Below are positions 1 through 31,582 of a DNA stretch of 43,728 nucleotides, piece after piece; positions within the stretch are counted from its first letter, which is position 1, and each line of letters opens with the position of its first letter. The DNA is from Lachnospiraceae bacterium (lineage in GTDB: Bacteria; Bacillota; Clostridia; Lachnospirales; Lachnospiraceae). Position numbers and translations under genes: made by a program. The stretch is from the NCBI GenBank assembly GCA_021199655.1, contig JAJQHQ010000041.1, forward strand, positions 34,757 through 78,484, in the 5' to 3' direction. A model generated the notes under the pieces. It was given only the letters and a program-made list of their open reading frames with translations, had not been told where the DNA came from and searched no databases.

Positions 1-55
1 AATCTGCAAAAGGGCAGGACTGCTGGTTTTTGATGGGCGGGACGCCCAATCAGTC
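1..55. repeat. Left copy of 55-bp direct repeat flanking structured element 1
   Basis: Bases 1-55 are identical to 169-223, with a period of 168 bp. The copy starts at the window edge and may extend further left. It holds the 3' half of the long interrupted hairpin seen complete at 142-198 and a short hairpin (TGGGC 34-38 with GCCCA 44-48). The same 168-bp period separates the duplicated part of the related element at 31386-31582. Confidence 0.9.
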
Positions 56-107
56 GCAGACATATGACGTCGCAGACGGCATATAGCCAGTCAGGGCGGT
101 CTGTGAC
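32..107 (+). ncRNA. Structured element 1: short hairpin plus three-way junction
   Basis: A short hairpin (34-48) is followed by a three-way junction. P1 pairs 53-61 with 99-107 (9 bp, one G-U). P2 pairs ATATG 62-66 with CATAT 80-84, has an A67/G79 mismatch, then CGTC 68-71 with GACG 75-78 and loop GCA. P3 pairs GCC 86-88 with GGC 95-97. Joining lengths are 0, 1 (A85) and 1 (G98). The element at 31451-31527 has the same plan with different bases in the stems, which supports a conserved RNA or single-stranded DNA fold. I cannot match it to a named RNA family, and the transcribed strand is not known. It sits downstream of mscL. Confidence 0.6.
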
Positions 108-141
108 CTGTTGTTCGGGTTAAGTGAAATGAAATAAACAG

Positions 142-198
142 AAAACCAGCAGTCAGCCCGTGCAGATTAATCTGCAAAAGGGCAGGACTGCTGGTTTT
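142..198. terminator. Long interrupted hairpin downstream of mscL, possible bidirectional terminator
   Basis: Bases 142-154 pair perfectly with 186-198 (13 bp, A-rich 5' end and T-rich 3' end). Inside, GCCC 156-159 pairs with GGGC 180-183 and TGCAGA 161-166 pairs with TCTGCA 171-176 around a TTAA loop. It lies 33 bp beyond the mscL stop and could end transcription on either strand. The inner architecture (G bulge opposite A-rich bulge, 6-bp stem, 4-nt loop) is shared with the hairpin at 31392-31446, so it is probably part of the structured element and not only a terminator. Confidence 0.6.
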
Positions 199-223
199 TG
201 ATGGGCGGGACGCCCAATCAGTC
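169..223. repeat. Right copy of 55-bp direct repeat
   Basis: It is identical to 1-55. It supplies the 3' half of the hairpin at 142-198 plus the short GGGC/GCCC hairpin, then stops: the three-way junction that follows the left copy is absent here, and the mscL stop codon begins 8 bp later. This looks like a partial tandem copy of the element. Confidence 0.9.
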
Positions 224-230
224 AAAAGCT

Positions 231-668
231 TTACAGTGCTGACGTACAGTTCGGGCACTTGGTCGCGTCTTTATGTACTTCAGACTTGCAGAACGGACAG
301 ATCTTGGTGGTCACTTCCGGTTCCGGAGCCGGCTTATGCAGCTTATTGATGCCCTTGATGACAAAGAAGATCACCAGAGCGGTCAGCAGGAACTCCACGA
401 TCATCTGGATGAAATTGCCGTATGCGATGACAGACGCGCCGGCTTCCTGAGCTGCAGCCAGTGTAGTATAGCTGTTTCCATCGAGCGGGATCATCAGATC
501 GGTGAAATTGATCCGTCCGGTCACCAGAGTGACTACAGGCATAACGATGTCGTTTACAAGTGATGAAACGATGTTGCTGAATGCTGCGCCGATAATTACG
601 CCGACTGCCATGTCGATGACATTGCCGCGCATAATAAAGGCTTTGAATTCTTCTGCGAGCTTACTCAT
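231..668 (-). CDS. mscL: Large-conductance mechanosensitive channel MscL with C-terminal zinc ribbon
   Basis: MscL forms a homopentameric membrane channel that opens under membrane tension to release solutes during hypo-osmotic shock. The 145-residue protein has the typical N-terminal amphipathic helix (MSKLAEEFKAF), TM1 with the conserved GNVIDMAVGVIIG stretch at residues 15-27, and TM2 at about residues 86-106. After TM2, where E. coli MscL has a short helical bundle, this protein carries a zinc-ribbon-like tail with Cys124, Cys127, Cys138 and Cys141 (C-x2-C-x10-C-x2-C). The start is supported by an AGGAGG site about 10 nt upstream. It is transcribed divergently from the exonuclease gene at 895 and has a shared palindromic leader element at 703-729. 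Identity is secure; the function of the zinc ribbon is unknown to me. Confidence 0.95.
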   Translation of the reverse strand: MSKLAEEFKAFIMRGNVIDMAVGVIIGAAFSNIVSSLVNDIVMPVVTLVTGRINFTDLMIPLDGNSYTTLAAAQEAGASVIAYGNFIQMIVEFLLTALVIFFVIKGINKLHKPAPEPEVTTKICPFCKSEVHKDATKCPNCTSAL

Positions 669-702
669 CTTTCCTTTCCTCCTGTGTGATAGTTTCCGTT
701 TT

Positions 703-729
703 GTAACTGTTCAGTACCGTCACAGTTAC
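703..729 (-). repeat. 5'-leader palindrome, copy 1 (upstream of mscL)
   Basis: Read in the mscL direction this begins GTAACTGTGA and ends GAACAGTTAC, an interrupted palindrome with 7-8-bp arms. It ends 34 nt before the mscL start codon. Three further copies (14451-14476, 17437-17463, 29725-29750) lie in the same orientation just upstream of other start codons. Confidence 0.85.
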
Positions 730-813
730 TTCGTTTCTTATAATTTCGAGCAACAAAACACATGCCGCCTGTCTTGCAGCAGACTGCGGGGCCGCCCGAA
801 ACTGTTTTACAGA

Positions 814-850
814 AGTATAACATAGTTTTTTGTGAAAGCTATGTTATACT
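814..850. promoter_or_regulatory. Symmetric divergent promoter/operator palindrome
   Basis: AGTATAACATAG (814-825) and CTATGTTATACT (839-850) form a perfect 12-bp inverted repeat with a 13-bp spacer. Each arm contains an extended -10 box (TGTTATACT) facing outward, so the mscL and yhaO-like genes appear to have mirror-image promoters. Recognisable -35 boxes are poor. The palindrome could also be the binding site of a dimeric regulator. Confidence 0.55.
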
Positions 851-894
851 AAAAAAAATTGAAAAAATTTTGAGGGGAGAGGAGACGAGGGCTT

Positions 895-1947
895 ATGCGG
901 TTTATGCATATTGCGGATGTACATCTGGGCGCCGCTCCGGATCATGGCTATGTCTGGTCGAAGGACAGGGGCCGGGAGCTTTGGGAGAGCTTCCGGCAGT
1001 GCATCGCGGATGCCAATGAAAAGAAAGTGGATCTGCTGCTGATCGCGGGGGATCTGTTTCATCGCCAGCCGGAAGAACGGGAGTTAAAAGAGGTCAATTA
1101 TCTTTTTTCTACATTGGAAAAGACAGTGGTGGTACTGATCGCGGGCAATCATGATTATCTGGCGCCGGGGTCGCCGTATCTGAACTACCCGTGGAATGAG
1201 AATGTAGTCTGCCTGTTCTCGCCGGAGTGCGAGAGAGTGCGCCTGCCGGACCTGAAAACAGAGATTTACGGCTTCAGCTATTATCAGCAGGAGATCACAG
1301 CCGGGCTGTACGATGGAATCGCGGCGGAGAAAAGCGATTATTTTAAAATCCTGCTCGCTCATGGCGGTGACGCGCAGCACATTCCCATCAGCCGGGAGAG
1401 GCTCTCGGAGTCAGGATTCGACTACATTGCGCTCGGCCATATCCACAGGCCGCAGGTATTTGTCCGGAACCTCGCCATGTATGCGGGAGCGCTGGAGCCG
1501 ATCGACTGCAATGATACCGGTCCGCACGGCTACATCATCGGGGAAATGCAGCGCAAAAAAGTGAAGCTTTCCTTCGTGGAAAAAGCACAGCGGCAGTATC
1601 GGAAGGAATCGGTGATGGTGACGGAGGAGGATACCGTCTTTTCCGTGCGGGAAAAGATCGCGCGTCTGGTACGGGAAAAAGGCAGTCAGGATACATACCG
1701 GATCACCCTTACCGGAGAACGTCATCCGCAGTTTCGCCCGGATATCAGGGAATACCTGAAATGCGGACGCATACTGGATATAGAGGATCAGACGGTTCCC
1801 GCGTTTCATCTGGAAGAATTGAAAAGGCAGTACCATGGCCAGCTGATCGGAGATTTTATTGAGAGCTTCGGGAATGGTCCGGGAAACCTGACCGAGAAAA
1901 AGGCGCTGGCCTATGGACTGGAGGCGTTGCTGTATCCGGGGAAATAA
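895..1947 (+). CDS. yhaO: YhaO/SbcD-like metallophosphoesterase (DNA repair exonuclease family)
   Basis: This 350-residue protein belongs to the calcineurin-like phosphoesterases of the SbcD/Mre11/YhaO group, which cut DNA with two bound metal ions as partners of an SMC-like ATPase. The motifs are all present: DVHLG (Asp8, His10), GDLFH (Asp53, His56), GNHD (Asn85, His86), His156 in LLAHGG, and GHIH (His182, His184). The start follows a purine-rich GGGGAGAGGAG site. The partner ATPase gene begins 52 bp downstream on the same strand and is probably in the same operon. The exact substrate is not known for the YhaO branch. The catalytic core is intact although the partner gene is frameshifted. 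Confidence 0.88.
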   Translation: MRFMHIADVHLGAAPDHGYVWSKDRGRELWESFRQCIADANEKKVDLLLIAGDLFHRQPEERELKEVNYLFSTLEKTVVVLIAGNHDYLAPGSPYLNYPWNENVVCLFSPECERVRLPDLKTEIYGFSYYQQEITAGLYDGIAAEKSDYFKILLAHGGDAQHIPISRERLSESGFDYIALGHIHRPQVFVRNLAMYAGALEPIDCNDTGPHGYIIGEMQRKKVKLSFVEKAQRQYRKESVMVTEEDTVFSVREKIARLVREKGSQDTYRITLTGERHPQFRPDIREYLKCGRILDIEDQTVPAFHLEELKRQYHGQLIGDFIESFGNGPGNLTEKKALAYGLEALLYPGK

Positions 1948-1999
1948 CAAATTTTTTACGCAGCTCTGCGCATAATAAGGGGACAAACAGGGGGAGACT

Positions 2000-3645
2000 A
2001 TGGAAATACAGGAACTGATAATCAAAAAGTATGGGAAATTTTCAGATTACCATATGACATTTCAGCCGGGGATCAATATTATCTATGGCGGCAATGAGAC
2101 AGGAAAGACGACGATCCATTCCTTTATAAAAGCAATGCTTTTCGGTCTGAACCGCGGCAGGGGACGCGCGGCAAGGATGGATGAGTACCAGCTTCGTCAG
2201 CCGTGGGATTCACCGGGGGCATTTCTGGGAAGCATGCGTATCCGCGAAGACGGAAATGTCTATCGGATTGACCGCTGCTTCGACCGCAGCGGAAAACCGC
2301 TCGGCCTGGTATGTGAGACGAAGAACGTGGAGTCGGAACATCCGCAGGAGGATCTGGATGTGCTGCTGGGCGGGATCAGCGAGAATGCTTTTATCAATTC
2401 CGTCTTTGTCTCCCAGATGCATTGTGAGACGGATGAAGCGTTTGCGCAGGAGCTGCGGCGTTATATGATCAACAGCGACAGCTCCCTGAACAGTGAGATT
2501 GACGTGACGAGGGCGCTGCAGTCGCTGCGCAAAAAGAAAAAACAGCTGGAGCAGCAGCAAAAAAAGGAAGAAGAGGATCTGGAAAAAAAGATCGCGCAGA
2601 AGCAGGAAAAGGCGGATCAGATCCGCCGGGAACTGGAACTTCTGGAGCAGCAGGCCGCGTACTATAACGGAAGCACGGCCGGGCGCGGCGGACGCAATAC
2701 TCAGAACAGGTATGAAACCGGCATGGAGGAAAATTCCGGATGGAACGGGTTCAAAGAAGAAGAGGAACAGCCTGATGGGGGCATTTCTCCCTGGATGTAC
2801 CGGCTGCTTGGCATGATGCTTGTATTAGCCGGCGCGCTGACCATGGGAGGTGCGTTTCTGATTGAGGGAGCATCTTTGCGCCTTTTTCTGGGAGTCATGA
2901 CAGCACTGTTCTGGCTGATGGCGATCGGTGTGCATGCTCTTTTCTCGCCGCATACGGGATCGCACGCGGATCATGGTGAGGAGCATTCCGGCGGCAATTC
3001 TTCTGATCTGGAGCCGGACTTTGCACCGGGAGCTGAATGCCCCCTGAACTTCTAAAGGAAATCAGAGGCCGTCAGGAAACTTATCGGAAATTGAAAGATG
3101 AACTGGAGCTTTTGTATCAGCAGCATGTGCAGCCCTCCATGGAAGTTGAGGCGCTGACACTGGCAATCGACCATATCTGTGACATATCGGACCGCATCTG
3201 CCGGGAAAACGGCGGCCGTCTCAACGAGATCGCCTCAGAAATTCTGGAAGAGATCACCTGCGGCCGATACAACCGCATTGTGCTGGACGACGCGGCGGAA
3301 GTGCGGATTCACACACCCTCGCGCGTACTCAGCTTAAATCAGGTCAGCAGCGGGACCATGCAGCAGATTTATTTCGCGCTTCGCATGGCTGCCGGCGAGC
3401 TGTTTACGGAGAGCCGGGCCATTCCGAATCGCGCAGACGCGCAGCACATGTCCCATGCCTCGTACGGAATGCCTTCCGGTGAGACATCCGGAGTATCCCT
3501 GCTGCCTGTACTCCTTGACGAAACCTTCGCCATGTACGACGACCACAGACTCGAAGCAACCCTCCGCTGGCTCAAAAAAAGCGGCCGGCAGGTCATACTC
3601 TTCACCTGCCAGAGCCGCGAGCGTGAAATCCTGAAAAAATTATGA
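2000..3645 (+). pseudogene. yhaN: YhaN-like AAA ATPase (SbcC/Rad50 type), frameshifted
   Basis: The reading frame encodes an SMC/Rad50-like ATPase, the likely partner of the upstream phosphoesterase. The first part (2000-3055) has the Walker A motif GGNETGKTT (residues 30-38), a coiled coil rich in K, E and Q (about 172-218), and two hydrophobic segments near residues 265-310, as in YhaN proteins of Firmicutes. It stops early. The second part, in another frame (about 3040-3645), has the C-terminal signature region (LNQVSSGTMQQIYFALRMA) and Walker B (PVLLDETFAMYDD). Adding one C to the C5 run at 3040-3044 would join them into a protein of about 548 residues. A roughly 25-residue hydrophilic insertion precedes Walker B. 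It is either a recent pseudogene or an assembly error. The start has a GGGGGAG site 5 nt upstream. Confidence 0.8.
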
Positions 3646-3667
3646 GCGCGAGCGTGTCCGAGGCCAC

Positions 3668-3687
3668 CCCGTTGTCTGCGGGCTTTT
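3668..3687 (+). terminator. Putative terminator of the yhaO-yhaN operon
   Basis: CCCG, a 7-nt loop and CGGG are followed by CTTTTCTTT. The stem is short, but its position just after the yhaN stop and at the 3' end of the convergent AraC gene fits a terminator. Confidence 0.5.
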
Positions 3688-3689
3688 CT

Positions 3690-4637
3690 TTAATTATCAT
3701 ACATCTTCTGACTGCACATCGCCCGATACTCGGACGGTGTGCACCCCTTCTTCTTTTTGAACATCCTGTTAAACGTGGACAGACTGGAGAAGCCCGACAG
3801 CAGCGCCACCTCCGTGATGGAATGCTCCTTGGACATCAGCAGGCTTTCCGCGGCCTTGATGCGCAGCAGACAGAGGTAATCATAAAAATTATAGCCGGAG
3901 CACTCCTTGAACAGGCGCGAAAAATGAAACTTGGAAAAGCCGGCTACATCAGCTACGGTTTCCAGAGAGAGATCCTCGCTGTAATGCTTGTCCATATAGT
4001 CAAAAACCGTGTTCAGCTTCTCATACAGCCGGACTGACCGCTCTGATGCGGATTCCGCGCTTTGTGAGACAGGAACCCGCTCAATGCGGGATTCCCCGTA
4101 ATTGGCAAAGAACTTCAGCAGGCTGGCGTAGCAGTTCAGCGCTCGGAGATGTCCGCCGAAAAAATACTCCCGGCAGAGTTCCAGGATCAGGTCAACCTCC
4201 TGCTCGTAGACCGTAGGACAGGTCTCCGGCGTGATCAGTACCTCATGGGAAATAAAAATCGTCAGGTAAGAAAACCCTTTGATCGCTGAGACAGCTTCCA
4301 TATCAAAAATATAGATCAGCCGCAGCCCGGACGGGGGAGCGATCAGCTGATGGAGCTCTCCCGGCGGGATAAGCAGAATCTCACCGGGATTCAGGTCATA
4401 GCGGGTCTGTCCCACGATCACAGTGTATGTATTTTCAATCGGCATGATCAGCTCTGTGGCGGGATGCCAGTGCATTTCATAGGATTCCGCCTGAGAATTA
4501 ATAAAAAAACGCAGTGTTGTATCGGGACGATAGTCCACCACCTCACGCTCACTTTCCATCCTGCGGTGGTATTGTTCCGAGTCCTGCTTTCCTATTTTCA
4601 GCAGGTCTTCGTCCAGAGTCAGTTTTGCCGGATCCAT
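3690..4637 (-). CDS. AraC-family transcriptional regulator with cupin sensor domain
   Basis: The protein of 315 residues has an N-terminal cupin-like ligand domain (about residues 35-125, with HWHPATELIMP and the PPGELH motif) and two C-terminal AraC helix-turn-helix units (about 215-310; LETVADVAGFSKFHFSRLFKE and ITEVALLSGFSSLSTFNRMFK). Proteins of this kind bind a sugar or related ligand and activate nearby transport genes. It is divergent from the carbohydrate ABC genes that start at 5210 and is the most likely regulator of them. The start has GGAGG 7 nt upstream. The ligand is unknown; the neighbours suggest a plant or host oligosaccharide. Confidence 0.9.
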   Translation of the reverse strand: MDPAKLTLDEDLLKIGKQDSEQYHRRMESEREVVDYRPDTTLRFFINSQAESYEMHWHPATELIMPIENTYTVIVGQTRYDLNPGEILLIPPGELHQLIAPPSGLRLIYIFDMEAVSAIKGFSYLTIFISHEVLITPETCPTVYEQEVDLILELCREYFFGGHLRALNCYASLLKFFANYGESRIERVPVSQSAESASERSVRLYEKLNTVFDYMDKHYSEDLSLETVADVAGFSKFHFSRLFKECSGYNFYDYLCLLRIKAAESLLMSKEHSITEVALLSGFSSLSTFNRMFKKKKGCTPSEYRAMCSQKMYDN

Positions 4638-5209
4638 ATGAATTCCTCCAATTGTCTGTATTAATCTAATGAATCAGGATAGTGCCTTTCACTTGCTGCG
4701 AGGTACGTATTGATAAGCAAAAATTGCGCGCCGGAAAACTGCATAAATTATTTGAAAAAAAATGTGTCCCATGCGCGGCGAACGGGTGACATTTCACAAA
4801 AACGACCGATAAATAAGCCATTTTTAAGGGAACGCAGGCAAAAAAACACAAGGATTGGAAAAAACAGGCAGTTGCCTGAATCTTCTGTTTTTTCTTTTGC
4901 TCCCGTTTGGGTTTATCATAACATAACCGCCATGAAATAGCAATAAGCGGGAAAAATTGAATGCCGGGCAAAAAAGGAAAAGTAAACACGGCAATTTGAC
5001 GGTGAAAAAATGAAAAAAGCAATAATTGACGGCATATTGCGCAAAATCTGGTAAGCCACAAAAAAAGTTTTGTGCAATAATTTAGAAAAATGCACACAGA
5101 CGCATGAGGAGTGACTGCGCTGCAGCCTTGCGTCTGGCGCAAAGTAAAACGTCTGCGTCGTTTTACTTTAGTAATATGGCCGAAAAATTCATAAAGGAGG
5201 AGAAAAAAG
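4638..5209. other. Regulatory region between the AraC gene and the sugar ABC operon
   Basis: This 572-bp A/T-rich region holds no gene that I can support. A possible promoter for the ABC operon is TTGACG (4996-5001) with AATAAT (5021-5026), but the 19-bp spacing is long. A structured motif lies at 5091-5169, just upstream of the AAGGAGGAG ribosome binding site of the first permease. The AraC promoter should lie in the left part, but I could not pick a convincing one. Confidence 0.5.
5091..5169 (+). ncRNA. Structured motif B, copy 1 (leader of sugar ABC operon)
   Basis: AGACGCA (5098-5104) pairs with TGCGTCT (5129-5135); inside are an unpaired GAGGAG stretch and a small stem CTGC/GCAG. Then comes GGCGC (5136-5140) and a perfect 11-bp hairpin, 5141-5151 with 5159-5169, rich in A and T. 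The second copy at 22984-23052 has AGGCGCA/TGCGCCT, a compensatory change, then the same GGCGC and a second hairpin. It ends 40 nt before the permease start and could act as an attenuator or leader element. The family is unknown to me. Confidence 0.5.
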
Positions 5210-6172
5210 ATGGCTGACACAGGCAAACAGGCAATCGGCAGCTCAGCGACCGCGAAGAAACCGCCGAGAGAGTCTTTGGGCAGGCACATACGCAAGTACT
5301 GGCAGTGGTATTCGATGATGCTGATACCGATCGTGTATTACATCATTTTCCGCTATGTGCCGATGGCAGGCAATATCATTGCTTTCCGGCGGTATCGTGC
5401 AGGCAGCAGTATTTTCGGAGATGAATGGAGCGGACTGAAGTATTTCCAGCAGTTCGTCCGGGATTCGAATTTCTGGAGGGCATTTCGGAATACTCTGCTT
5501 CTGAACTTTGAGTATTTGATCATCAGCTTTCCGATAACGATTGTTTTCGCATTGCTTCTGAATGAGATAAAGAATACAAGATTTAAGAAAGTCGTGCAGA
5601 CGATTTCCTATCTGCCGCACTTTATTTCCATGGTTATCGTAGCCGGTATGGTGCGTGAGATCCTTTCCACCAGCGGCCCGATCAACAACTTCATTACCTC
5701 CCTGGGAGGGCAGGCGATCACATTTATCAGTCTGCCGCAATGGTTCCCGACGATCTTTGTGGTGACTGGTGTATGGCAGGGACTTGGCTGGAATACGATC
5801 CTCTATCTGGCTGCCATGGCCGGCATCAGTCCGGATATGTACGAAGCGGCGGAGCTCGACGGAGCAAGCAGGTTCCAGCAGTGCATCTATGTGACACTGC
5901 CGTCGATCCTCCCGACGATTTCGACGCTGCTGATCCTGAACATCGGCCAGCTGTGCGGTTCCGGCGCGTTTGAGAAGGTCTTCCTTCTGTATCAGCCGAC
6001 TACATATGAGACGGCCGATATCATCGCTACCTATGTATACCGCATGGGTCTCGGATCCGGTAATTACAGCTACGCGACGGCAGTCGGCCTGTTCCAGGGC
6101 CTGATCAACCTGACACTCCTGACTGTGGCAAACAAGGTGTCCAAGAAGGTCGCCGGCACTGGCCTGTACTAA
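5210..6172 (+). CDS. Carbohydrate ABC transporter permease, LplB/YteP type
   Basis: This 320-residue inner membrane permease carries sugars or oligosaccharides across the membrane as one half of a heterodimeric channel. After a hydrophilic N-terminus of about 30 residues there are about six hydrophobic segments. The EAA loop that contacts the ATPase is visible as YEAAELDGASRFQ followed by TLP. LplB-type permeases work with a YtcP-type permease (next gene, 16 bp downstream) and a large solute-binding protein (third gene). No ATPase gene is nearby, so a shared MsmK-like ATPase elsewhere is likely. The start has AAGGAGGAG about 8 nt upstream. Confidence 0.93.
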   Translation: MADTGKQAIGSSATAKKPPRESLGRHIRKYWQWYSMMLIPIVYYIIFRYVPMAGNIIAFRRYRAGSSIFGDEWSGLKYFQQFVRDSNFWRAFRNTLLLNFEYLIISFPITIVFALLLNEIKNTRFKKVVQTISYLPHFISMVIVAGMVREILSTSGPINNFITSLGGQAITFISLPQWFPTIFVVTGVWQGLGWNTILYLAAMAGISPDMYEAAELDGASRFQQCIYVTLPSILPTISTLLILNIGQLCGSGAFEKVFLLYQPTTYETADIIATYVYRMGLGSGNYSYATAVGLFQGLINLTLLTVANKVSKKVAGTGLY

Positions 6173-6188
6173 GGAAGGAGGAAGTACG

Positions 6189-7079
6189 ATGGCAAAAAAA
6201 CACAGTGGTACCGCGATTAAGGTTTCACGTGGGTACCGTATATTTACGATATGCAATACGATCCTGATGGTATTGATCTGCGTGGTCATGCTTTACCCGT
6301 TTTTGTATCTGATCGCACAGTCGTTTTCTTCCTATGAAGCGATTGTTGCCGGTAAAGTGGGAATTCTTCCGGTGGATTTCAGTATTGATACTTATGTCTA
6401 CGTGATCACGAACGGTGTGTTCATTCCGGACTACATCAATACGATCGTTTATTCGGCAGTCGGTACGTTTCTGGCATTGTTTTTCTCAGCTCTGCTGGCG
6501 TATCCGCTTTCAAAATCCGAACTCTGGGGCAACAAGGTTGTCGCTCCGCTCATCATCTTCACGATGTATTTTGGCGGCGGCATGATCCCGAACTACCTGC
6601 TGATGATCAATCTGGGATTGCAGGATACCGTAGCGGCATTCCTTCTTCCTTCACTGATCTCTACTTATTACGTGATCCTGATGCGTTCCTTCTTTGAGAC
6701 GGTTCCGAAAGAACTCGAAGAGGCTGGCGAGATGGACGGACTGAACAAATACGGTGTGTTTTTCCGGATTGCGCTTCCGCTGTCCAAGCCGATCATCGCA
6801 ACCATGGTGCTGTTCTATCTGGTTATGTACTGGAACGACTGGTTTGACGCATTCCTGTATCTGGATACCCAGAGCAAATGGCCTGTGGCATACTACCTGA
6901 GAAACCTGATCTCTACCGCGGGTTCGTCGACTTCGCAGGATGCGGGCGAGACGATTGCGATCGCGTCCAATATCAAATCCTGTGCAATGGTATTGACGGC
7001 TGCACCGATCATCTGTGTGTATCCGTTCATCCAGAAGTATTTCGTACAGGGCATGATGCTCGGCGGCGTAAAGGGCTGA
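6189..7079 (+). CDS. Carbohydrate ABC transporter permease, YtcP type
   Basis: The second permease subunit of the importer has 296 residues with about six membrane segments. The EAA loop is visible as LEEAGEMDGLNKYGVF...IALPLSKP. It starts 16 bp after the first permease with GGAAGGAGG upstream, so the two are co-transcribed. The C-terminus ends with the family-typical KYFVQGMMLGGVKG. Together with the preceding and following genes it forms an importer of the YtcQ-LplB-YtcP class; the substrate cannot be read from the sequence. Confidence 0.93.
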   Translation: MAKKHSGTAIKVSRGYRIFTICNTILMVLICVVMLYPFLYLIAQSFSSYEAIVAGKVGILPVDFSIDTYVYVITNGVFIPDYINTIVYSAVGTFLALFFSALLAYPLSKSELWGNKVVAPLIIFTMYFGGGMIPNYLLMINLGLQDTVAAFLLPSLISTYYVILMRSFFETVPKELEEAGEMDGLNKYGVFFRIALPLSKPIIATMVLFYLVMYWNDWFDAFLYLDTQSKWPVAYYLRNLISTAGSSTSQDAGETIAIASNIKSCAMVLTAAPIICVYPFIQKYFVQGMMLGGVKG

Positions 7080-7161
7080 TGTATTTACAATGTTCATGTG
7101 CCCGGCAAGGGCTTATGATAGGTAGTGACACATTTTAATTCAATCTAAGGAGGCTTTCTAA

Positions 7162-14450: not shown

Positions 14451-14476
14451 GTAACTGTGAAAGTACTGAACAGTTA
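14451..14476 (+). repeat. 5'-leader palindrome, copy 2 (upstream of LacI-type gene)
   Basis: It reads GTAACTGTGA, then AAGTACT, then GAACAGTTA. It ends 37 nt before the start codon at 14514, in the same orientation as the gene, as in the other three copies. Confidence 0.85.
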
Positions 14477-14513
14477 TAATTTTGGGCGGTTAGTTGTGCA
14501 GTGGGGGTTGCAT

Positions 14514-17436: not shown

Positions 17437-17463
17437 GTAACTGTTCAGTCCCGTCGCAGTTAC
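17437..17463 (-). repeat. 5'-leader palindrome, copy 3 (upstream of TrpY-type permease)
   Basis: Read in the permease direction it begins GTAACTGCGA and ends GAACAGTTAC. It is the closest of the four copies to a start codon (16 nt) and may overlap the ribosome binding region. Confidence 0.85.
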
Positions 17464-23811: not shown

Positions 23812-23871
23812 CGCAGCGGCTGTCCGGAAATTTTCCGGGAGCGCAGCGGCTGTCCCGGAATCTTCCGGGAA
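23812..23871 (+). repeat. In-frame 30-bp tandem repeat, two units, inside mutY
   Basis: Units 23812-23841 and 23842-23871 both begin CGCAGCGGCTGTCC and differ at few bases. They code for two versions of QRLSGNFPGA just before FNQSLMELGA. Confidence 0.85.
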
Positions 23872-24452
23872 CGTTCAATCAGTCCCTGATGGAACTTGGC
23901 GCACTCATCTGCGTGCCAAACGGATTTCCTGCCTGTGAACGCTGTCCGGTCAGTCATCTGTGCCGGGCTGCCTGCGACGGACATCAGACGGAATACCCGG
24001 TAAAGGCAAAAAAAGAAGCCGCGCCGCATCGAAGAGCGCACGGTGCTTGTGATCCGCGACAGCAGTCATGCGGCTCTGCACCGCCGGCCGCTGCACGGAC
24101 TTCTGGCCGGTCTGTATGAGCTTCCAAACCATGAAGGACACCTGACACAGGAGGAGGCGCTCCTGTGTGTATCGGAGAGCGGATTTTCCCCGATTCGGAT
24201 CCGGCCGCTTCCGGAGGCAAAGCATATATTCAGCCATGTGGAATGGCATATGATCGGGTATCTTGTGCTGGTGGAAGACTGTGAGGATCCGATAAAGACT
24301 TTGGATCAGGATAAATGTGATACATTTTTTATAGAACCCGAGGTGATTCAGCGCGATTATTCGATTCCGAGTGCGTTTGCGGTATATCAAAGGTTCATTA
24401 ACGGGTAGCTTGACAGATTCTGTTTCGACTGAAAAAGAGAAGGGTGACTGTT

Positions 24453-24518
24453 ATGCCTGAAATAAGTAGATTTTATGGAATATCAATCCTTTATAGAAAA
24501 ATGAAGATACAAGGGTAA
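24453..24518 (+). pseudogene. Remnant of a DUF4160 gene
   Basis: This 21-residue frame starts MPEISRFYGISI, the standard N-terminus of DUF4160 proteins (normally about 75-90 residues). The middle part is missing and the frame ends eight bases before the DUF2442 gene. DUF4160 and DUF2442 genes are commonly adjacent and have been proposed to be toxin-antitoxin-like pairs. An AAGGGTG site lies upstream, so the short peptide could still be made. Confidence 0.65.
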
Positions 24519-24525
24519 AAAGGGT

Positions 24526-24825
24526 ATGTTTGAAGTGAATGGAATTTTATATGCCGGGACTTCTGAAAAACTGGTAAAAATTAAAGACGCCAAAGTAACT
24601 GGGAGGAAAATGCTGTTACTTACATTTTCATCTGGTGAAAAGCGCGTTTTTGATGCGGAAACATTAAAGGGCGAAGTTTTTCTTCCACTTGATGAGGAAC
24701 GTATATTTCGGAATTTTAAAATCGTACATGGTGTTGTCACATGGATGAATGAAGAAATTGACTGTGCACCGGAATATATGTACGAACACAGCTATGCTTA
24801 TGACAACTGGGAAAATGTGGTATAA
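24526..24825 (+). CDS. DUF2442 domain protein
   Basis: This 99-residue protein has the DUF2442 pattern (KIKDAKVTGRKMLLLTFSSGEKRVFDAETL and a late DCAPEYMYEHSYAYD). The family is small and often stands next to a DUF4160 gene; here only a remnant of that gene is left, at 24453. The G+C content is lower than its neighbours, in line with a mobile accessory gene. The function is unknown. Confidence 0.8.
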   Translation: MFEVNGILYAGTSEKLVKIKDAKVTGRKMLLLTFSSGEKRVFDAETLKGEVFLPLDEERIFRNFKIVHGVVTWMNEEIDCAPEYMYEHSYAYDNWENVV

Positions 24826-24844
24826 AGGTACAAGGGAGTCTATA

Positions 24845-25870
24845 ATGAAGAAAATTCTGACCGTAGCCATTCCGTGCTACAATTCTGAAGAATATATGGA
24901 GAAATGCATCAGGTCCATCCTTCCGGTGGGGGATGCGGTGGAGATTCTGATCGTCGACGACGGTTCGACAAAGGACCGGACGGGAGAGATTGCGGACGAG
25001 TACGCGGCGCGCTATCCGGATATCATCCGTGCGGTACACCAGGAAAACGGCGGACACGGCGAGGCGGTGAATGCCGGACTGCGCAACGCGACAGGCGTGT
25101 ATTACAAGGTCGTGGACAGCGACGACTGGGTGAATACGAAAGGTCTGAAAAAAATTGTGCAGACCATGCAGGATCTGGAAGAAAAGGGCGGCGTGGATAT
25201 GCTGCTCGCGAATTTTGTCTATGACAAGGTCGGAGCGAAGCACAAGAGACTGATGCGTTTTACAAAGGTGTTCCCGTGTGAGGAAATCTTTGAGTGGGAT
25301 GATATGAAGCATATGCCCATGACGCAGTACATCCTGATGCATAACATTTTCTACCGTACACAGATGCTGCGGGACTGCGGTACGGAGCTTCCAAAGCACA
25401 CGTTTTATGTGGACAATATTTTCGCGTTCCAGCCGCTGCCTCATGTGAAAAAGCTGTATTATATGGATGTGAACCTTTATCATTATTTTATCGGGCGTGA
25501 GGATCAGTCGGTCAATGAGAAGGTAATGATCGGGCGGATCGACCAGCAGATTCTGGTCAATCAGATCATGATCGACGTCATGGCGGCGGAGGATTTTACG
25601 ACGAAACCGGCAGAATTGAAAGATTATATGCTGAATTATCTGTCCAAGATCATGACGGTGACCTCAATTATGCTGATCTTATCCGGCACGGAGGAAGCGC
25701 TGGCGAAAAAAGAGGCCATCTGGGAGTATTTAAAAGAAAAGGATCCGGATGTGTACCGGACGCTTCGCCATGGCCTCCTCGGCATCGGGATGAACCTGCC
25801 GGGCAAAGCCGGCAGGAAAATATCCGTCTGGGGATATAAGGCGGCGCAAAAGCTTGTGGGATTCAATTAA
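24845..25870 (+). CDS. Family 2 glycosyltransferase
   Basis: This 341-residue enzyme of the GT-A fold transfers a sugar from a nucleotide-sugar donor to a cell-surface or exported glycan. Visible are the N-terminal TVAIPCYNSEEYMEKCIRSIL, VDDGSTKDRT, and the metal-binding DSDDW at about residue 95. There are no membrane segments. The start has AAGGGAG 7 nt upstream; the frame is open upstream but overlaps the DUF2442 gene. It is convergent with pyrI, with only 4 bp between. Donor and acceptor are not known. Confidence 0.88.
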   Translation: MKKILTVAIPCYNSEEYMEKCIRSILPVGDAVEILIVDDGSTKDRTGEIADEYAARYPDIIRAVHQENGGHGEAVNAGLRNATGVYYKVVDSDDWVNTKGLKKIVQTMQDLEEKGGVDMLLANFVYDKVGAKHKRLMRFTKVFPCEEIFEWDDMKHMPMTQYILMHNIFYRTQMLRDCGTELPKHTFYVDNIFAFQPLPHVKKLYYMDVNLYHYFIGREDQSVNEKVMIGRIDQQILVNQIMIDVMAAEDFTTKPAELKDYMLNYLSKIMTVTSIMLILSGTEEALAKKEAIWEYLKEKDPDVYRTLRHGLLGIGMNLPGKAGRKISVWGYKAAQKLVGFN

Positions 25871-25874
25871 ATGA

Positions 25875-26318
25875 TCAGCTGCGTTTTTTGCGTGACGTGC
25901 GGTATTTCTCTTCGCAGTACAGGCAGCGGTAGATTTCTTCTTCCGGATCGGCAAGGTAGAAGATGTGATCCAGCTCCTGTTCGATGGAAGTAATGCAGCG
26001 CGGGTTCCGGCATTTGATGATGTTGACCAGCCGCTGCGGCAGCTCCAGCTGCCTTTTCTCAACGATCTCACCATCGCGGATGATGTTGACGGTGATGGTG
26101 TGGTCGATGTAGCCGAGTACGTTAAGGTCGAGCTCGTCGATCGGGCATTCGACCTTGATGATGTCTTTTTTGCCCATTTTATTGCTGTGCGCGTTCTTGA
26201 TGATCGCGACGCAGCAGTCCATGCGGTCGAGCTTCAGGTAACGGTAGAGATCCATGCTTTTGCCGGCCTCGATATGATCGAGCACGACGCCTTCGTTCAG
26301 TCTTCCTACGTTTAACAT
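25875..26318 (-). CDS. pyrI: Aspartate carbamoyltransferase regulatory subunit PyrI
   Basis: PyrI binds nucleotides (CTP, ATP) and adjusts the activity of the PyrB catalytic trimers in the first committed step of pyrimidine synthesis. The 147-residue protein has the N-terminal allosteric domain ([10 protein letters not shown]) and the C-terminal zinc site with four cysteines (KCRNPRC, then YRCLYC). Its start overlaps the end of pyrB by 7 nt, so it is translationally coupled. Confidence 0.95.
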
Positions 26319-27232
26319 CCTTCCACCTCCAGTAATGTGAGAATCAGAGCCATGCGGACATATACGCCGTACTGGGCCTGTTTAAAGTAAACGGCACGTG
26401 GGTCGTCATCGACTTCGACAGAGATCTCGTTGACGCGCGGCAGCGGGTGCAGTACCAGCATGTCTTCTTTGGCGAGCTTCATCTTTTCCTTATCGAGGAT
26501 GTAGAAATCCTTCATGCGGATGTAATCTTCCTCGTTGAAGAAACGTTCTCTCTGGACGCGGGTCATATAGAGCAGATCCAGCTGCGGAATCGCGTCTTCC
26601 AGACGGACTTCTTCGCGGAAATCCTGATGGTTCTTTTTGAGGACGCCGTCGCGGATGTTGTCCGGCAGCCGCAGCTCCTCCGGGGAGATCAGGACGAAGC
26701 GGATATTCGGGTAGCGGATGAGCGCCTGGATCAGGGAGTGGACTGTACGTCCGAATTTCAGGTCGCCGCAGAGACCGATGGTGAAATTGTCAAGCCGCCC
26801 TTTCAGCGAGCGGATCGTCAGAAGGTCGGTCAGGGTCTGCGTCGGATGCTGGTGGCCGCCGTCTCCGGCGTTGATGATCGGGATGGATGATTTCATGGAA
26901 GCTACAAGCGGAGCGCCCTCTTTCGGATGGCGCATCGCGCAGATATCTGCGTAGCAGGAGATGACGCGGATCGTGTCGGACACGCTCTCCCCCTTGGCGG
27001 CGGAGCTGGAATCGGCCGAAGAAAAACCAAGTACGCTGCCGCCTAAATTTAACATTGCTGCTTCGAAACTTAAACGGGTTCTTGTACTTGGCTCATAAAA
27101 TAAAGTCGCTAATTTTTTGCCCTCACAGGAATGGGCGTATCGGGAAGGGTGGGCTTCAATGTCATTGGCAAGATCGAGAAGCCGGTCAAGCTCTTCCACG
27201 GATAAATCCAGCGGGCTCATCAGATGTTTCAT
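26312..27232 (-). CDS. pyrB: Aspartate carbamoyltransferase catalytic subunit PyrB
   Basis: PyrB joins carbamoyl phosphate and aspartate to carbamoyl aspartate in the cytoplasm. The 306-residue protein has the carbamoyl-phosphate motif STRTR (49-53), HPTQTLTDL, and the aspartate-binding [10 protein letters not shown] chose ATG 27232 because AGGAGG lies about 6 nt upstream and the protein then begins [10 protein letters not shown], as in other PyrB; the frame is open for 28 further codons. It is transcribed with pyrI from the promoter at 27325-27353. Confidence 0.96.
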
Positions 27233-27324
27233 GGGATCCTCCTTTAAAATCTGTCCCGATTCTCGAAGAGAGTCCGGGACCTGTGTCGTATGCCTGAATA
27301 CAGATGTATGCTGCAATCTGAGCT

Positions 27325-27353
27325 ATCATACTCTATATCGGTCTGGATTTCAA
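27325..27353 (-). promoter_or_regulatory. Sigma-A promoter of pyrBI
   Basis: On the minus strand, TTGAAA (27353-27348) and TATGAT (27330-27325) with a 17-bp spacer. Confidence 0.8.
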
Positions 27354-27512
27354 GAACTTTTTGCTCTGGATCGCAGGGCTGTTTTACCTGCCGCCGAAGG
27401 AAATGATTTCGTTATTTTTCACGGCGAGCCTGACACTTGTTGTCAGGCTGCGCCAGAACATGTTTCGGATGTGTGATTTCCGCTGCCGGAGCAGGATTTT
27501 ACATGTTTCAGA

Positions 27513-27541
27513 TTGACTTCCGTGCTCTTTTTCGGTATGAT
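27513..27541 (+). promoter_or_regulatory. Sigma-A promoter of the RelA/SpoT-domain gene
   Basis: TTGACT (27513-27518) and TATGAT (27536-27541) with a 17-bp spacer. The leader would be about 125 nt. Confidence 0.75.
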
Positions 27542-27672
27542 AGGAAAAAAGCTGGCAAGGCGGTCTGGCCTATCGTGAAACGGATGCGACAGAGTCGTTT
27601 GCCTGCTTTTCTTTGCGCGCAGGCCAGGAAGCCTGAATGTGTGCATGGTGAATATTGGGTGGTGTTTGAGCA

Positions 27673-29688
27673 ATGAATGAAATAAAAAGAACGATTTATA
27701 CAAAAGAAGAACTTTCGGAACGGGTGAAGATTTCCCCGATGGTAGAGTCGGATCTTAAAAGGATCATTACGGATCGGATGGAGCAGTGCGGTCTGTATTT
27801 TCGTGTGTTTTCCCGCGTCAAGACGGCGGCTTCCATGGCGCGCAAGTTTGAGCAGAAGGCCTATGGCGGGGAGCACAAGCTGCAGGATCTGGTCGGTGTG
27901 CGGATCAATCTTTACTTTGACGACGATGTGGAGATCTGCCGCCATGTGATGGAGCAGACCTTCGAGGTGCTGGAATGGTCGACATCGGAGCGCAGCGATG
28001 ATGAGTTCAAGCCGACCAAGCTGAACGGCGTGTTCCGGCTGCCGGAATATTTAAAGGATGAGATCTCGGCGGACACCTGGGAGATGTGCATTGACGATAC
28101 GTTTGAGATTCAGATCAAAACGATGTTTTTTGAGGGCTGGCATGAGATCGAGCATGACATGCGTTATAAGGGCGAGGAGCTCTGGAACAGCTATCCGGGC
28201 TTTTCCCGCTACCTGAACAGTATTCTGGCGACACTGGAGCTCTGCGACAAGTCGATGGTGACGCTGTTTGAAGATCTTGGTCATACTCTTTACAAGGCCG
28301 GGCGCTGGAGCGACATGATCAAGAGCCATTTCCGGGTCAAGATGAGCGACGTTTCGCTGTACCCGGAGCTGGAAGAGCTGCTGAACAAAGATCTGGAGAA
28401 TGTGGAGAATCTGGCCAAGGCGATCTATAAGACCCCGCGCGTCGTGCTGGTCGACCAGCTTTTAAAGCGCAGCCGCCGCGTGCCGATCAATGTCAATACG
28501 ATCATCGCGCTCCTCAATGAAGGTGTGTTTCACGACAGCCGCCTGACGACGATTTTCCGCAAGCATGACGTCTATAATGACGGCCGGGAGGAAAGCCTTG
28601 CGGAATCCCGCCACTACGAACTGCGGACGCTCACCAGGCAGACCGCGTTTCAGATGTGTACGGAAGTGGACGGCAGCCGCATGAAAGGAACGGGGGCGGC
28701 AGCACAGAAGGCAGATGGAGGCGCCAAGAGCGGCGCTGTGGAAAATAATCAGGAGTATCCGACAGCGGATGAGATTTTCTGTGCCTGTACGCAGCAGATC
28801 TACGACTGGATCGTGAAAAAATACGGCCAGCTGTTTAAGGATATGCCGGCGCAGCCAACGACCTATCACGCGGATATTCTGGCGTATCATGTGGCGGTGA
28901 ATCTGGACTATGAGAAGAGCCGGATGAATATGCATGTGCGGCATATGGATCCGGAGGTGGCCGGCCGTATCTGGTATTCAGAGGCAAGCCTTACGATAAA
29001 TGAAGCCGGTAAGGTCTGGCTGTGTGTTTCGAACGGCTATGCCGAGGCTAAAAAAGACGACCGTCCGGAGAAGGACGGCGCGGGGATATTTTTCAGCTAT
29101 CCCGGTTATTATAAAACGATTGTGGATACGATCGGCATTTTCAACAGCCTGCCCTGCTCGAACCGCAGGCGGATCATCCGCGAGGAAGCTCTTCCCGGAC
29201 TGGAAGAGGCACTGCAGGACCGCAGCCGTAATTTTCCGATCGTCATCATCATTTCCGAGGAGGACGAGGACGGCATGATGGATGAGGACTGGCTCGGTCA
29301 GTTCCGGGTATCGGATTTTACCCGGACCGTCTGCCGCTACGCGCATGTCCTGACCTGTTATGAGGAGGTCGGGAAAAAGCTGCTGGAGCATCTTCAGAAA
29401 AAGAATATTTTCACTCCGGCGGATAATATGACGCTTGACGCGGCATATTTCCCGCGGCTGTATATCTTCTGGCCGGAGGGCAATGTGGACGATTTCGGAC
29501 CGGAGGATGTGGAGAACTGCAGCTTCGGCCGCCATCTGGAAGCGCGCTCGGATGCACGCACCTATGACATTGTCCGCGGCGGGCAGGCGCTTTATCACAA
29601 GGTCGTGACGGATCTGCGGGACTGGAATGTTTCCGCAAATATGTGGGATGGATTCCAACTCGAGATTATGACGGAAATTCCAACGTGA
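27673..29688 (+). CDS. RelA/SpoT-domain protein with large C-terminal extension of unknown function
   Basis: The first 210 or so residues form a RelA/SpoT nucleotide-synthetase domain: RVKTAASMARK (Arg48, Lys50, Ser54, Lys58), QDLVGVRI (Asp72, Arg77), and EIQIKT...WHEIEHDMRYK (Glu145, Glu160, Lys166). Such domains transfer pyrophosphate from ATP to GTP/GDP or, in toxic members, to other acceptors. The G-loop, normally NGYRSxH with a Tyr stacking on the guanine, reads NGVFRLP, so the acceptor may differ. No HD hydrolase, TGS or ACT domain is seen. Residues 215-671 match no domain I recognise; residues 335-363 are low complexity. It has its own promoter and a weak ribosome binding site (GGTGG). 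It could be a stress alarmone enzyme or a toxSAS-like effector; both are inference. Confidence 0.75.
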   Translation: MNEIKRTIYTKEELSERVKISPMVESDLKRIITDRMEQCGLYFRVFSRVKTAASMARKFEQKAYGGEHKLQDLVGVRINLYFDDDVEICRHVMEQTFEVLEWSTSERSDDEFKPTKLNGVFRLPEYLKDEISADTWEMCIDDTFEIQIKTMFFEGWHEIEHDMRYKGEELWNSYPGFSRYLNSILATLELCDKSMVTLFEDLGHTLYKAGRWSDMIKSHFRVKMSDVSLYPELEELLNKDLENVENLAKAIYKTPRVVLVDQLLKRSRRVPINVNTIIALLNEGVFHDSRLTTIFRKHDVYNDGREESLAESRHYELRTLTRQTAFQMCTEVDGSRMKGTGAAAQKADGGAKSGAVENNQEYPTADEIFCACTQQIYDWIVKKYGQLFKDMPAQPTTYHADILAYHVAVNLDYEKSRMNMHVRHMDPEVAGRIWYSEASLTINEAGKVWLCVSNGYAEAKKDDRPEKDGAGIFFSYPGYYKTIVDTIGIFNSLPCSNRRRIIREEALPGLEEALQDRSRNFPIVIIISEEDEDGMMDEDWLGQFRVSDFTRTVCRYAHVLTCYEEVGKKLLEHLQKKNIFTPADNMTLDAAYFPRLYIFWPEGNVDDFGPEDVENCSFGRHLEARSDARTYDIVRGGQALYHKVVTDLRDWNVSANMWDGFQLEIMTEIPT

Positions 29689-29724
29689 TGCTCTTTGACT
29701 TTTGCGTGACGTTGTAAATATATG

Positions 29725-29750
29725 GTAACTGTGAAGATACGGAACAGTTA
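29725..29750 (+). repeat. 5'-leader palindrome, copy 4 (upstream of prfC)
   Basis: It begins GTAACTGTGA and ends GAACAGTTA, in the direction of prfC. It ends 39 nt before the TTG start. It also lies 37 bp after the stop of the upstream gene. Confidence 0.85.
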
Positions 29751-29789
29751 TCACCTGTGAAAGATAAGGAAAGTCGAGGAGGATTTATT

Positions 29790-31376
29790 TTGAGCACGAT
29801 TACAGATGAAATAACGAAACGGCGCACGTTCGCCATTATTTCCCACCCGGATGCGGGCAAGACGACCCTGACGGAGAAGTTTCTTCTCTACGGCGGAGCG
29901 ATCAACCTGGCCGGTTCGGTGAAGGGAAAAGCGACCATGCGCCATGCGGTCTCCGACTGGATGGAGATTGAAAAAGAGAGAGGAATCTCGGTGACTTCAT
30001 CGGTGCTGCAGTTCAACTACGGCGGCTACTGCATCAACATTCTGGATACGCCGGGACATCAGGACTTCTCGGAGGATACGTACCGTACGCTGATGGCGGC
30101 GGATTCGGCGGTGATGGTCATCGACGCATCCAAAGGCGTGGAGGCGCAGACAAGGAAGCTGTTTAAAGTCTGCGTGATGCGGCACATTCCGATTTTTACG
30201 TTTATTAATAAGCTCGACCGCGACGCGAACGATACATTTGAGCTGCTGGATGAGATTGAAAAAGAGCTGGGCATTGCGACCTGCCCGATCAACTGGCCGA
30301 TCGGCTCCGGCAAGAATTTCAAGGGCGTGTATGAGCGCGAGAGTCGTCAGGTGCTGACCTTTACAGATACGCAGAAGGGCACTAAGATGGGTGTCGAGAC
30401 CCGGATCGACGTGGACTCGCCCGAATTGGAGGAGTTCATCGGCACGGAGAACAAGGAGCAGCTGCTGGAAGAGATTGAACTGCTGGACGGCGCTTCCGCG
30501 GAGTTTGACCAGGAAAAGGTCAGCGCGGGCGAGCTTTCGCCGGTGTTTTTCGGCTCGGCTTTGACGAATTTCGGCGTCGAGGTCTTTTTGCAGCATTTCC
30601 TGAAAATGACGACTCCGCCTCTGCCGAGAAAAGCAGACTGCGGCATCATCGACCCGATGACAGAGGACTTTTCCGCCTTTGTCTTTAAGATACAGGCAAA
30701 TATGAACCGTGCGCACCGCGACCGTGTCGCGTTCATGCGCATCTGCTCCGGCAGGTTTGACGCGGGGATGGAGGTCTACCATGTGCAGGGAGACCGCACA
30801 CAGCGTCTTTCCCAGCCGCAGCAGATGATGGCGCAGGAGCGCCATGTCGTGCAGGAGGCTTACGCCGGGGATATCATCGGCGTCTTCGATCCGGGCATTT
30901 TCTCTATCGGCGATACGATCTGCATGCCGGGCAAAAAGTTTGCCTACGAGGGTATTCCGACCTTCGCGCCGGAGCACTTCGCACGCGTACGGCAGATTGA
31001 CACGATGAAGCGCAAGCAGTTCGTCAAGGGCATCACCCAGATCGCCCAGGAGGGCGCAATCCAGATTTTTCAGGAGTTCAACACCGGCATGGAAGAGATC
31101 ATCGTCGGCGTGGTCGGCGTCCTGCAGTTTGACGTCCTGAAATACCGCCTGGAGAATGAATATAATGTAGAGATTCGTCTGGATATGCTGCCTTACGAGT
31201 ACATTCGCTGGATTGAGAACGAGGAGATCGATCTCGAACATCTTGTCGGCACTTCGGATATGAAGAAGATCCGCGACCTCAAGGGCCGTCCGCTGCTGCT
31301 GTTTGTCAACAGCTGGTCGGTCGGCATGGTGCTGGAACGCAATGAAGGGCTGAGACTTGCGGAATTTGGGCGTTAG
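29790..31376 (+). CDS. prfC: Peptide chain release factor 3
   Basis: RF3 is a translational GTPase that removes RF1 or RF2 from the ribosome after peptide release. The G motifs are intact: AIISHPDAGKTTLTEK, DTPGHQDFSEDTYR, INKLDRD. With the TTG start at 29790 the protein has 528 residues, the same as typical RF3, and begins STITDEITKRRTFAI; AGGAGG lies 7 nt upstream. A longer GTG frame starts at 29757 but would place the ribosome binding site inside the gene. The leader carries the conserved palindrome at 29725-29750, and the stop codon overlaps the first base of structured element 2. Confidence 0.95.
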   Translation: MSTITDEITKRRTFAIISHPDAGKTTLTEKFLLYGGAINLAGSVKGKATMRHAVSDWMEIEKERGISVTSSVLQFNYGGYCINILDTPGHQDFSEDTYRTLMAADSAVMVIDASKGVEAQTRKLFKVCVMRHIPIFTFINKLDRDANDTFELLDEIEKELGIATCPINWPIGSGKNFKGVYERESRQVLTFTDTQKGTKMGVETRIDVDSPELEEFIGTENKEQLLEEIELLDGASAEFDQEKVSAGELSPVFFGSALTNFGVEVFLQHFLKMTTPPLPRKADCGIIDPMTEDFSAFVFKIQANMNRAHRDRVAFMRICSGRFDAGMEVYHVQGDRTQRLSQPQQMMAQERHVVQEAYAGDIIGVFDPGIFSIGDTICMPGKKFAYEGIPTFAPEHFARVRQIDTMKRKQFVKGITQIAQEGAIQIFQEFNTGMEEIIVGVVGVLQFDVLKYRLENEYNVEIRLDMLPYEYIRWIENEEIDLEHLVGTSDMKKIRDLKGRPLLLFVNSWSVGMVLERNEGLRLAEFGR

Positions 31377-31545
31377 CGTTCTGCCGTGCCAAAAGCATCC
31401 TCGAAGACCGTGCAGGCTTGCCTGCAAAGGTCTGGGAGGATGCTTTGAAGAACGGGCAGAATGCCCGTTCAGCCACAGTCATATGATGCGAAGCAGCATA
31501 TAGCCTGCGAAGCAGGTGGGCTGTGGCATGGGCACGGCAGAACGC
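31376..31545 (+). ncRNA. Structured element 2: closed four-branch structure after prfC
   Basis: A perfect 15-bp inverted repeat (31376-31390 with 31531-31545) closes the element. Inside are an interrupted hairpin (31392-31402 with 31436-31446; 31405-31409 with 31429-31433; 31411-31416 with 31421-31426, loop CTTG), a short hairpin (AACGGGC 31451-31457 with GCCCGTT 31463-31469), and a three-way junction: P1 31472-31480 with 31519-31527; P2 ATATG/CATAT with A-G mismatch and loop GAA; P3 CCTGC/GCAGG with loop GAA. The plan, the joining lengths and the bulges match element 1 (1-223), while stem bases differ in a compensatory way. Its first hairpin could end prfC transcription, but the conserved fold points to a further role. 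Confidence 0.65.
31386..31414. repeat. 29-bp direct repeat, left copy
   Basis: It begins GTGCCAAAAGCATCC and is identical to 31554-31582, exactly 168 bp away. It comprises the end of the outer stem and the 5' half of the first hairpin of structured element 2. Confidence 0.9.
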
Positions 31546-31553
31546 GTAAACAT

Positions 31554-31582
31554 GTGCCAAAAGCATCCTCGAAGACCGTGCA
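31554..31582. repeat. 29-bp direct repeat, right copy (truncated element)
   Basis: It is identical to 31386-31414 but cut off before the 3' half of the hairpin. It appears to be the start of a second element copy that was truncated. Confidence 0.9.

Follow-up and report, generated by a model that had tools for sequence, protein, structure and literature searches.

A 43,728-nt stretch of a Lachnospiraceae bacterium genome (GCA_021199655.1, contig JAJQHQ010000041.1, forward-strand positions 34,757 to 78,484; the whole stretch is called the window here) carries two similar, strongly folding elements, one next to mscL and the other next to prfC, which raises the question of what these elements are and why their fold has been kept. 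The original prediction, made from the letters alone, knew only these two copies and offered a small RNA, a mobile repeat or a single-stranded DNA (ssDNA) recombination substrate as options. The mobile repeat is supported, in the form of DNA bounded by terminal inverted repeats (TIRs) and 8-bp duplications, a miniature inverted-repeat transposable element (MITE), and not in the form of an element that moves through RNA. Our analysis suggests a MITE-like family that would be moved in trans by a DDE-type transposase, likeliest that of IS66, and that carries a conserved fold with a terminator-like hairpin. We place the probability of this reading at roughly 0.7. Judged from their ends and flanks, the assignment to DDE-type MITEs is well supported, and IS66 is the likely source of the mobilising transposase.

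A typical copy is about 176 bp in length and the family ranges from about 144 to 280 bp. TIRs of the form GTAAC...GTTAC pair together and enclose a first hairpin (HP1), a second hairpin (HP2, GGGC/GCCC) and a three-way junction of the stems P1, P2 and P3. HP1 is made of an outer stem, an A.G mismatch, a G bulge, a TGCAGR apex and an AA(A) bulge. The minimum free energy (MFE) z-scores of window positions 1-230 and 31372-31590 are -8.06 and -11.07, respectively, and in both cases none of 200 shuffles folded equally well. A covariance model (R1) trained on nine other copies from the same genome, with the two window copies excluded, finds the second element at 31375-31545 (110.6 bits) and the first as two pieces at 1-126 (66.8 bits) and 135-252 (43.0 bits). 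The common architecture proposed for the two elements is therefore real, while their limits had to be redrawn. Positions 1-223, taken for a single element, hold the 3' portion of a first copy (1-118) and a truncated second copy (about 137-223). The second element spans only 31376-31545, and the remainder of the proposed 31376-31582 is a spacer and then 29 nt repeated from the 5' part of the element. Nor are there only two copies: at E<=1e-4, R1 gives 49 matches in the genome, 48 of them in the sense orientation and one being the HP1 palindrome on the opposite strand (the 48 include two mutually overlapping matches, one of HP1 alone and two pieces at window 1-252). The pattern CATATGAN{5,25}GCATATAGCC is present at 20 places in the genome and at none when read backwards.

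Short, dispersed and multi-copy, the elements have TIRs (GTAACWRTTCAG..., GTAACAGTTCAGAACAGC/GCTGTTCTGAACAGTTAC and variants) and a duplication of fixed length. Identity between the two flanks peaks at exactly 8 bp (mean 0.59, compared to 0.29-0.45 at 4-7 and 9-12 bp), and an exact 8-bp target duplication is present in 14 of the 48 scored loci, these being the ones among loci L040-L124 that passed the end filter. TIRs together with 8-bp target duplications are the reason for proposing DDE-type insertion, which would occur in trans. Judged by its length, the element has no room for a transposase gene. Among the fetched loci (1.70 Mb), 38 end pairs with a duplication of at least 7/8 were identified. 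Most are copies of the element, L183 included, and the others include a 135-bp relative and one 2267-bp IS66 element (L173), which has the TIR GTTACTATTCAC and is flanked by an exact 8-bp duplication, ACTATTTT. IS66 elements are described, in the accessible part of the source, as having 8-bp direct repeats and 20-30-bp ends beginning GTAAGCG (PMC11946415); the resemblance of our elements to IS66 (Pfam PF03050) lies in the 8-bp direct repeats and in ends that begin GTAA/GTTA. The closest case is the copy in L183, with ends GTTACTGTTCACAGTC and an 8-bp duplication, where each of the two ends shares 15 of 16 bases with the IS66 end in L145.

Two further repeats with related ends were noted. A 27-bp palindromic repeat of the same end type, GTAACTGTGAAGGTACTGAACAGTTAC, lies at window 703-729 (-), 14451-14477 (+), 17437-17463 (-) and 29725-29751 (+), and the related pattern GTAACWRTTCNGWAC has 168 occurrences in the genome and none read backwards. 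Over its 29 copies in the fetched loci the identity between the flanks was highest at 8 bp (0.47 vs 0.22-0.30), with at least 7/8 in 4 of the 29; it is perhaps a minimal mobile element, and some copies form the ends of a larger repeat. A second MITE-like family, 135 bp in length, has GTAACTGTTCAG ends and is flanked by exact 8-bp duplications (L060:2757-2891, L067:2682-2816 and L125:3334-3468).

The suggestion that the fold is under selective constraint held in both a model-fitted and a structure-blind alignment, where covariation is widespread. In the model-fitted alignment, covariation is significant (q<=0.05) for 63 of 71 pairs and the paired fraction is 0.907, compared to 0.717 under a tree-aware null, which is a simplified in-house simulation of 400 replicates that keeps the tree and the column rates. 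It comprises 59 unique rows, obtained by removing 8 opposite-strand matches from 73 rows and then 6 partial rows. When the sequences were aligned with MAFFT, blind to structure, 0.857 of the cells still pair, compared to 0.33-0.39 with the partners slid by 1-3 columns (control sets of 55-66 pairs; the structure was taken from one alignment row), and a double change is seen in 66 of the 71 pairs. Folding of single sequences recovers 80% of the pairs in the TIRs, 83% in HP1, 92% in HP2, 89% in P1, 66% in P2 and 86% in P3. All this holds for copies whose pairwise identity averages 0.63 and falls to 0.31; the divergent copy in L183 scores 63.1 bits, with an MFE z-score of -10.2. The conserved fold (HP1, HP2 and the three-way junction) lies within a stem formed by the paired TIRs.

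A separate folded repeat of about 54 nt (CGCTG...CAGTG...TTAGC...GACCGAAG) with a variable, complementary tip occurs in 21 copies in the fetched loci, and is found nested in HP2, HP1, the junction or a TIR of the element (L048, L050, L057, L003, L292 and others).

Outside the TIRs, G-U cells outnumber A-C cells by 61 to 24, and in HP2, P1 and P3 taken together by 30 to 3. Five non-canonical pairs were excluded from this count by hand, and, as the cells are non-independent and the alignment was built by an RNA model, it is support and not proof. The excess fits the strand as read being the strand that folds, most simply within transcripts. The outer stem of HP1 is strand-neutral, with 834 Watson-Crick, 7 G-U and 5 A-C cells, and its arms are wholly different between subfamilies. 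Nearly perfect pairing of this kind could arise with no selection at all if, during replication, one arm of a long palindrome templates the correction of the other and so keeps them complementary while they drift. Such correction would however erase the G bulge, the AA(A) bulge and the A.G mismatch, yet these recur at fixed positions across copies. HP2, P1 and P3, which are too short to be strong palindromes, covary as well and show the G-U excess of 30 to 3, and we consider arm correction an unlikely source of the covariation.

The strand preference would also be expected if the interior were the gene of a trans-acting small RNA carried by the MITE, whose three-way junction is read by a protein or RNA partner. 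The junction strings CATATGAC...GGCATATAGCC are almost unaltered in L183 despite its different HP1, HP2 and TIRs, as such a gene would predict. On the other hand, the copy number is high, the junction is absent from the relatives in L352 and L110, and window 1-900 gave no promoter-like site, which leaves a small RNA gene rather doubtful. Strong folding of one strand and the presence of bulges would suit an ssDNA recombination or transposition substrate, either attC-like or IS200/IS605-like. However, IS200/IS605 elements are not known to have terminal inverted repeats or target duplication, and as both are present here, we regard this origin as highly improbable.

Returning to a MITE-like family with a terminator-like HP1, the 5' arm of this hairpin consists of 54% A and 12% T, and at least 5 T are present in 8 nt of its 3' arm in 53 of 63 rows. 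Our hypothesis, drawn from this composition, is that HP1 could act as a bidirectional terminator, which would make insertions beside gene ends harmless and let some copies, as at mscL, assume terminator duty; by itself it does not account for the three-way junction. A match at E<=0.01 is present in 11 of the 30 loci fetched for the mscL site, including a weak one (L330, 5e-4). By eye, the element is followed by a second HP1 in seven of the loci (L321, L324, L327, L328, L329, L331 and L333), G021 (L330) has a single HP1, and in G007 (L323) the place of the element is taken by an ordinary hairpin with A and T tracts. Comparison of these loci indicates that the element is old at mscL, where it may have taken over termination. 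At the prfC site, the only one of 30 fetched loci with a model match is that of the window genome itself. Inspection by eye (L292-L294) finds a single truncated left part in G011, as would follow from recombination between the 29-nt repeats, an internally deleted copy in G007 and nothing similar in G010. The prfC copy is restricted to a small clade.

Several observations weigh against the reading given here. At least 34 loci beyond the 14 exact ones have worn or no visible duplications, and no clean empty site was present in the fetched loci: the 9 matches of that search were seven tandem pieces in the same locus, one internally deleted copy and one unrelated spacing. As to IS66, common copies (e.g. 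L040) match the L145 end at just 9-10 of 16 bases, and the common GTAACAGTTCAG end and R1 matches are both absent from 30 IS66 loci of the genus. In the genome of the window IS66 is represented by a remnant alone, whose end differs, and the genome of L183 gave no IS66. An IS66 with identical ends as the source was thus found neither in the IS66 loci of the genus nor in the L183 genome, and a search confined to IS66 gave no autonomous partner that shares the element's ends and its genome. The missing IS66 with the same ends lowers the claim for IS66 and leaves the MITE anatomy as it is. With regard to termination, 10 of the 63 rows lack a T-rich HP1, the second window element among them, and an intrinsic-terminator scan, which apparently allowed no bulges, finds none in either window element. 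The orientation of neighbouring genes is only weakly biased, the upstream gene being co-directional in 48 of 81 cases (++ 28, -- 21, +- 20, -+ 12; 89 elements were examined, of which 20 had an overlapping open reading frame (ORF) of at least 100 codons and 81 had both neighbours).

Both window elements have a truncated copy of their own left part downstream, and the same polarity is seen in the family. An extra piece of the same element is present on the right side of 28 of 136 distinct elements, always in the same orientation, and none was found on the left side or inverted. Up to 140 nt of flank was searched with a threshold of 32, where shuffled flanks reach 22; the set of 136 leaves out places within 140-150 nt of an N or a contig end, the first window element among them. 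After look-alike flanks were dropped, right-side pieces remain in 25 of 127. Of the 28 pieces, 26 begin within the left part of the element (position 0-41), and those in L104 and L124 are right-end pieces. By eye, the pieces have the same variants as the copy beside them (L190 and L245 are examples), which identifies them as local re-copies; in L216 the spacer is the 8-bp duplication. An assembly artefact of the window genome can be set aside, since other genomes have such pieces too. Simple slippage between 8-bp duplications would presumably leave pieces on both sides, and the upstream gene is co-directional in 16 of 26 cases and not in 10, so that its orientation does not explain the polarity.

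The simplest description is a directional copying step from the left end, by which copies would re-copy their left part beside themselves and leave truncated second copies on the right. It is conceivable, although we give this only a slender chance, that the folded interior is no mere cargo and belongs to the machinery of the element, with a structured RNA or ssDNA from the strand as read having a part in propagation by an IS66-type transposase, and with copying that runs from the left end rightwards. Such copying would yield left-anchored, 3'-truncated pieces on the right side and would explain why the fold has outlived the letters across genera. The family would link a fold to IS66, the transposition mechanism of which is poorly known, and its one-sided partial re-copying offers a concrete clue to polarity that can be tested.

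The family is widespread. In the genus, R1 matches at E<=1e-5 are present in 40 of 47 genomes, with a maximum of 43 per genome. A sample of the family gave matches in 16 of 299 genomes, 14 of them from other genera, which is a lower bound as nine candidates were scored per genome. A second covariance model, built from 33 more diverse rows, finds the element in 20 of 392 genomes and 16 of 173 genera of the order with seven candidates scored per genome; G364, G485 and G564 belong to two other families. A pattern scan of named genomes gave at least 115 stretches, and the 80 listed are all from Lachnospiraceae or Clostridiales metagenome-assembled genomes (MAGs) except for one Enterobacter and one Methanosphaera record. 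The model confirmed 3 of 10 loci on which it was tried (L183, L177 and L186), and apart from those two records the named matches listed are to uncultured Lachnospiraceae or Clostridiales MAGs. The Enterobacter, Methanosphaera and viral-contig (IMG/VR) matches are among the seven unconfirmed. One copy (L008) had no match in phage and plasmid collections, and with the lone IMG/VR match unconfirmed, a phage or plasmid origin was rejected.

Structured repeats of comparable kinds are known from other bacteria, and the comparisons made here extend as far as the accessible parts of the cited papers. In the Bacillus cereus group, bcr1-bcr3 are MITE-like, bcr10 and bcr18 have a conserved secondary structure, and about half of the copies are expressed (PMC3446304; PMC2267715). 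These bcr repeats are short and intergenic and are set beside our element by description only, whereas the GTAAC ends, 8-bp duplications and a fold across many genera are found in the element described here, in another host group. BOX, RUP and SPRITE of Streptococcus pneumoniae are likewise MITE-like and structured with paired terminal repeats; they cluster and insert into one another, and the terminator-like SPRITE is thought to have been co-opted at 3' ends (PMC3049150; PMC10969869). They differ in host and architecture and are nearly absent from other streptococci, whereas the present fold spans several genera and three families. QMITE1 and QMITE2 of Coxiella burnetii have 7-9 bp direct repeats, 23-29 bp terminal repeats and a strongly folding transcript, and some yield small RNAs (PMC10969869). 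The likeness lies in a MITE with direct and terminal repeats and a strong fold; the host is unrelated, and a conserved multi-branched core is not described in the parts of that source consulted. Searches of the open-licence PMC library turned up nothing that appeared relevant on MITEs in Lachnospiraceae, IS66-derived MITEs, the RNA motif or the element's end and core strings. Compared with these closest kinds as far as they are described there, our element is a structured MITE that is unusual in three respects: how deeply it covaries, how far it extends across genera, and that it is re-copied on one side only. According to the same partial sources, known structured bacterial MITEs are confined to one host group; here one multi-branched fold is shared by many genera and by three or more families of a single order, and is kept down to 31% pairwise identity with wholly different HP1 arms. 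The family therefore provides a natural alignment deep enough for testing the role of the fold in termination, protection of host transcripts or transposition.

That the original prediction could assign the element to no known RNA family agrees with Rfam 15, which has no match over the window at gathering score. At L040, L100, L324 and L183 no credible match covers the element at E<=1, and over 20 further loci nothing falls on the elements at E<=0.01, the T-box and tRNA matches lying outside them. A known family was ruled out on these searches. Taken with the homologues found in related genomes and the significant covariation, the outcome is in line with that prediction on all three points. 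Some known RNAs lie near copies of the element: a Clostridiales-1-like RNA (RF01699, 44.7 bits vs a cut-off of 48) at L100:1373-1506 (-) adjoins the inserted element with a 6-nt overlap on the opposite strand, an azaaromatic (yjdF) riboswitch is at L183:1365-1484 (-), and a T-box leader is at L121:1163-1426 (-).

Table 1. Parts of the two elements in the window and the basis of their placement.
Feature	Position	Strand	Basis and remarks
First element, HP1 3' arm	1..30	+	Sequence, L013, R1 match 1-126 (66.8 bits); 5' arm upstream of the window, past an N gap in the HP1 apex
First element, HP2 (TGATGGGCGGGACGCCCAATCA)	31..52	+	Sequence, R1 alignment
First element, three-way junction: P1 GTCGCAGAC/GTCTGTGAC, P2 CATATGA...GGCATAT, P3	53..107	+	Sequence, R1 alignment
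First element, right TIR CTGTTGTTCGG	108..118	+	L013, by eye; pairs with CCGAACAACAG upstream of the N gap
Truncated second copy at first element: HP1 (142-198) and HP2, ends at CAGTC	137..223	+	Repeat analysis, R1 43.0 bits
Second element, left TIR GCGTTCTGCCGTGCC	31376..31390	+	Inverted pair I3, 100% complementary
Second element, HP1: G bulge, TGCAGG/CCTGCA apex, AA bulge	31392..31446	+	Repeat analysis, folding, R1
Second element, HP2 GAACGGGCAGAATGCCCGTTC	31450..31470	+	Sequence, folding, R1
Second element, three-way junction	31472..31527	+	Folding, R1
Second element, right TIR GGCACGGCAGAACGC	31531..31545	+	Repeat analysis
Truncated second copy at second element: 29-nt repeat of own 5' part	31554..31582	+	Direct repeat D1, 100%

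The first element extends to the left of window position 1, its left end and the 5' arm of HP1 being located upstream (L013). The N run in the HP1 loop at L013, just upstream of the window, probably marks where the assembly broke at the palindrome. Window positions 169-223 are an exact repeat of 1-55, and an 8-nt spacer (31546-31553) separates the second element from its 29-nt repeat. The first element had been described as following mscL; this gene is on the minus strand (231-668), and the element therefore sits between convergent genes, mscL and an upstream ORF with a DnaJ-like start (labelled by eye from its translation). The other neighbours in the window are prfC (RF3) and, downstream of the second element, a Uma2-type nuclease-like gene (Pfam PF05685; 31516-32196, +). 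As listed, the latter ORF starts within the second element and therefore its true start is probably later.

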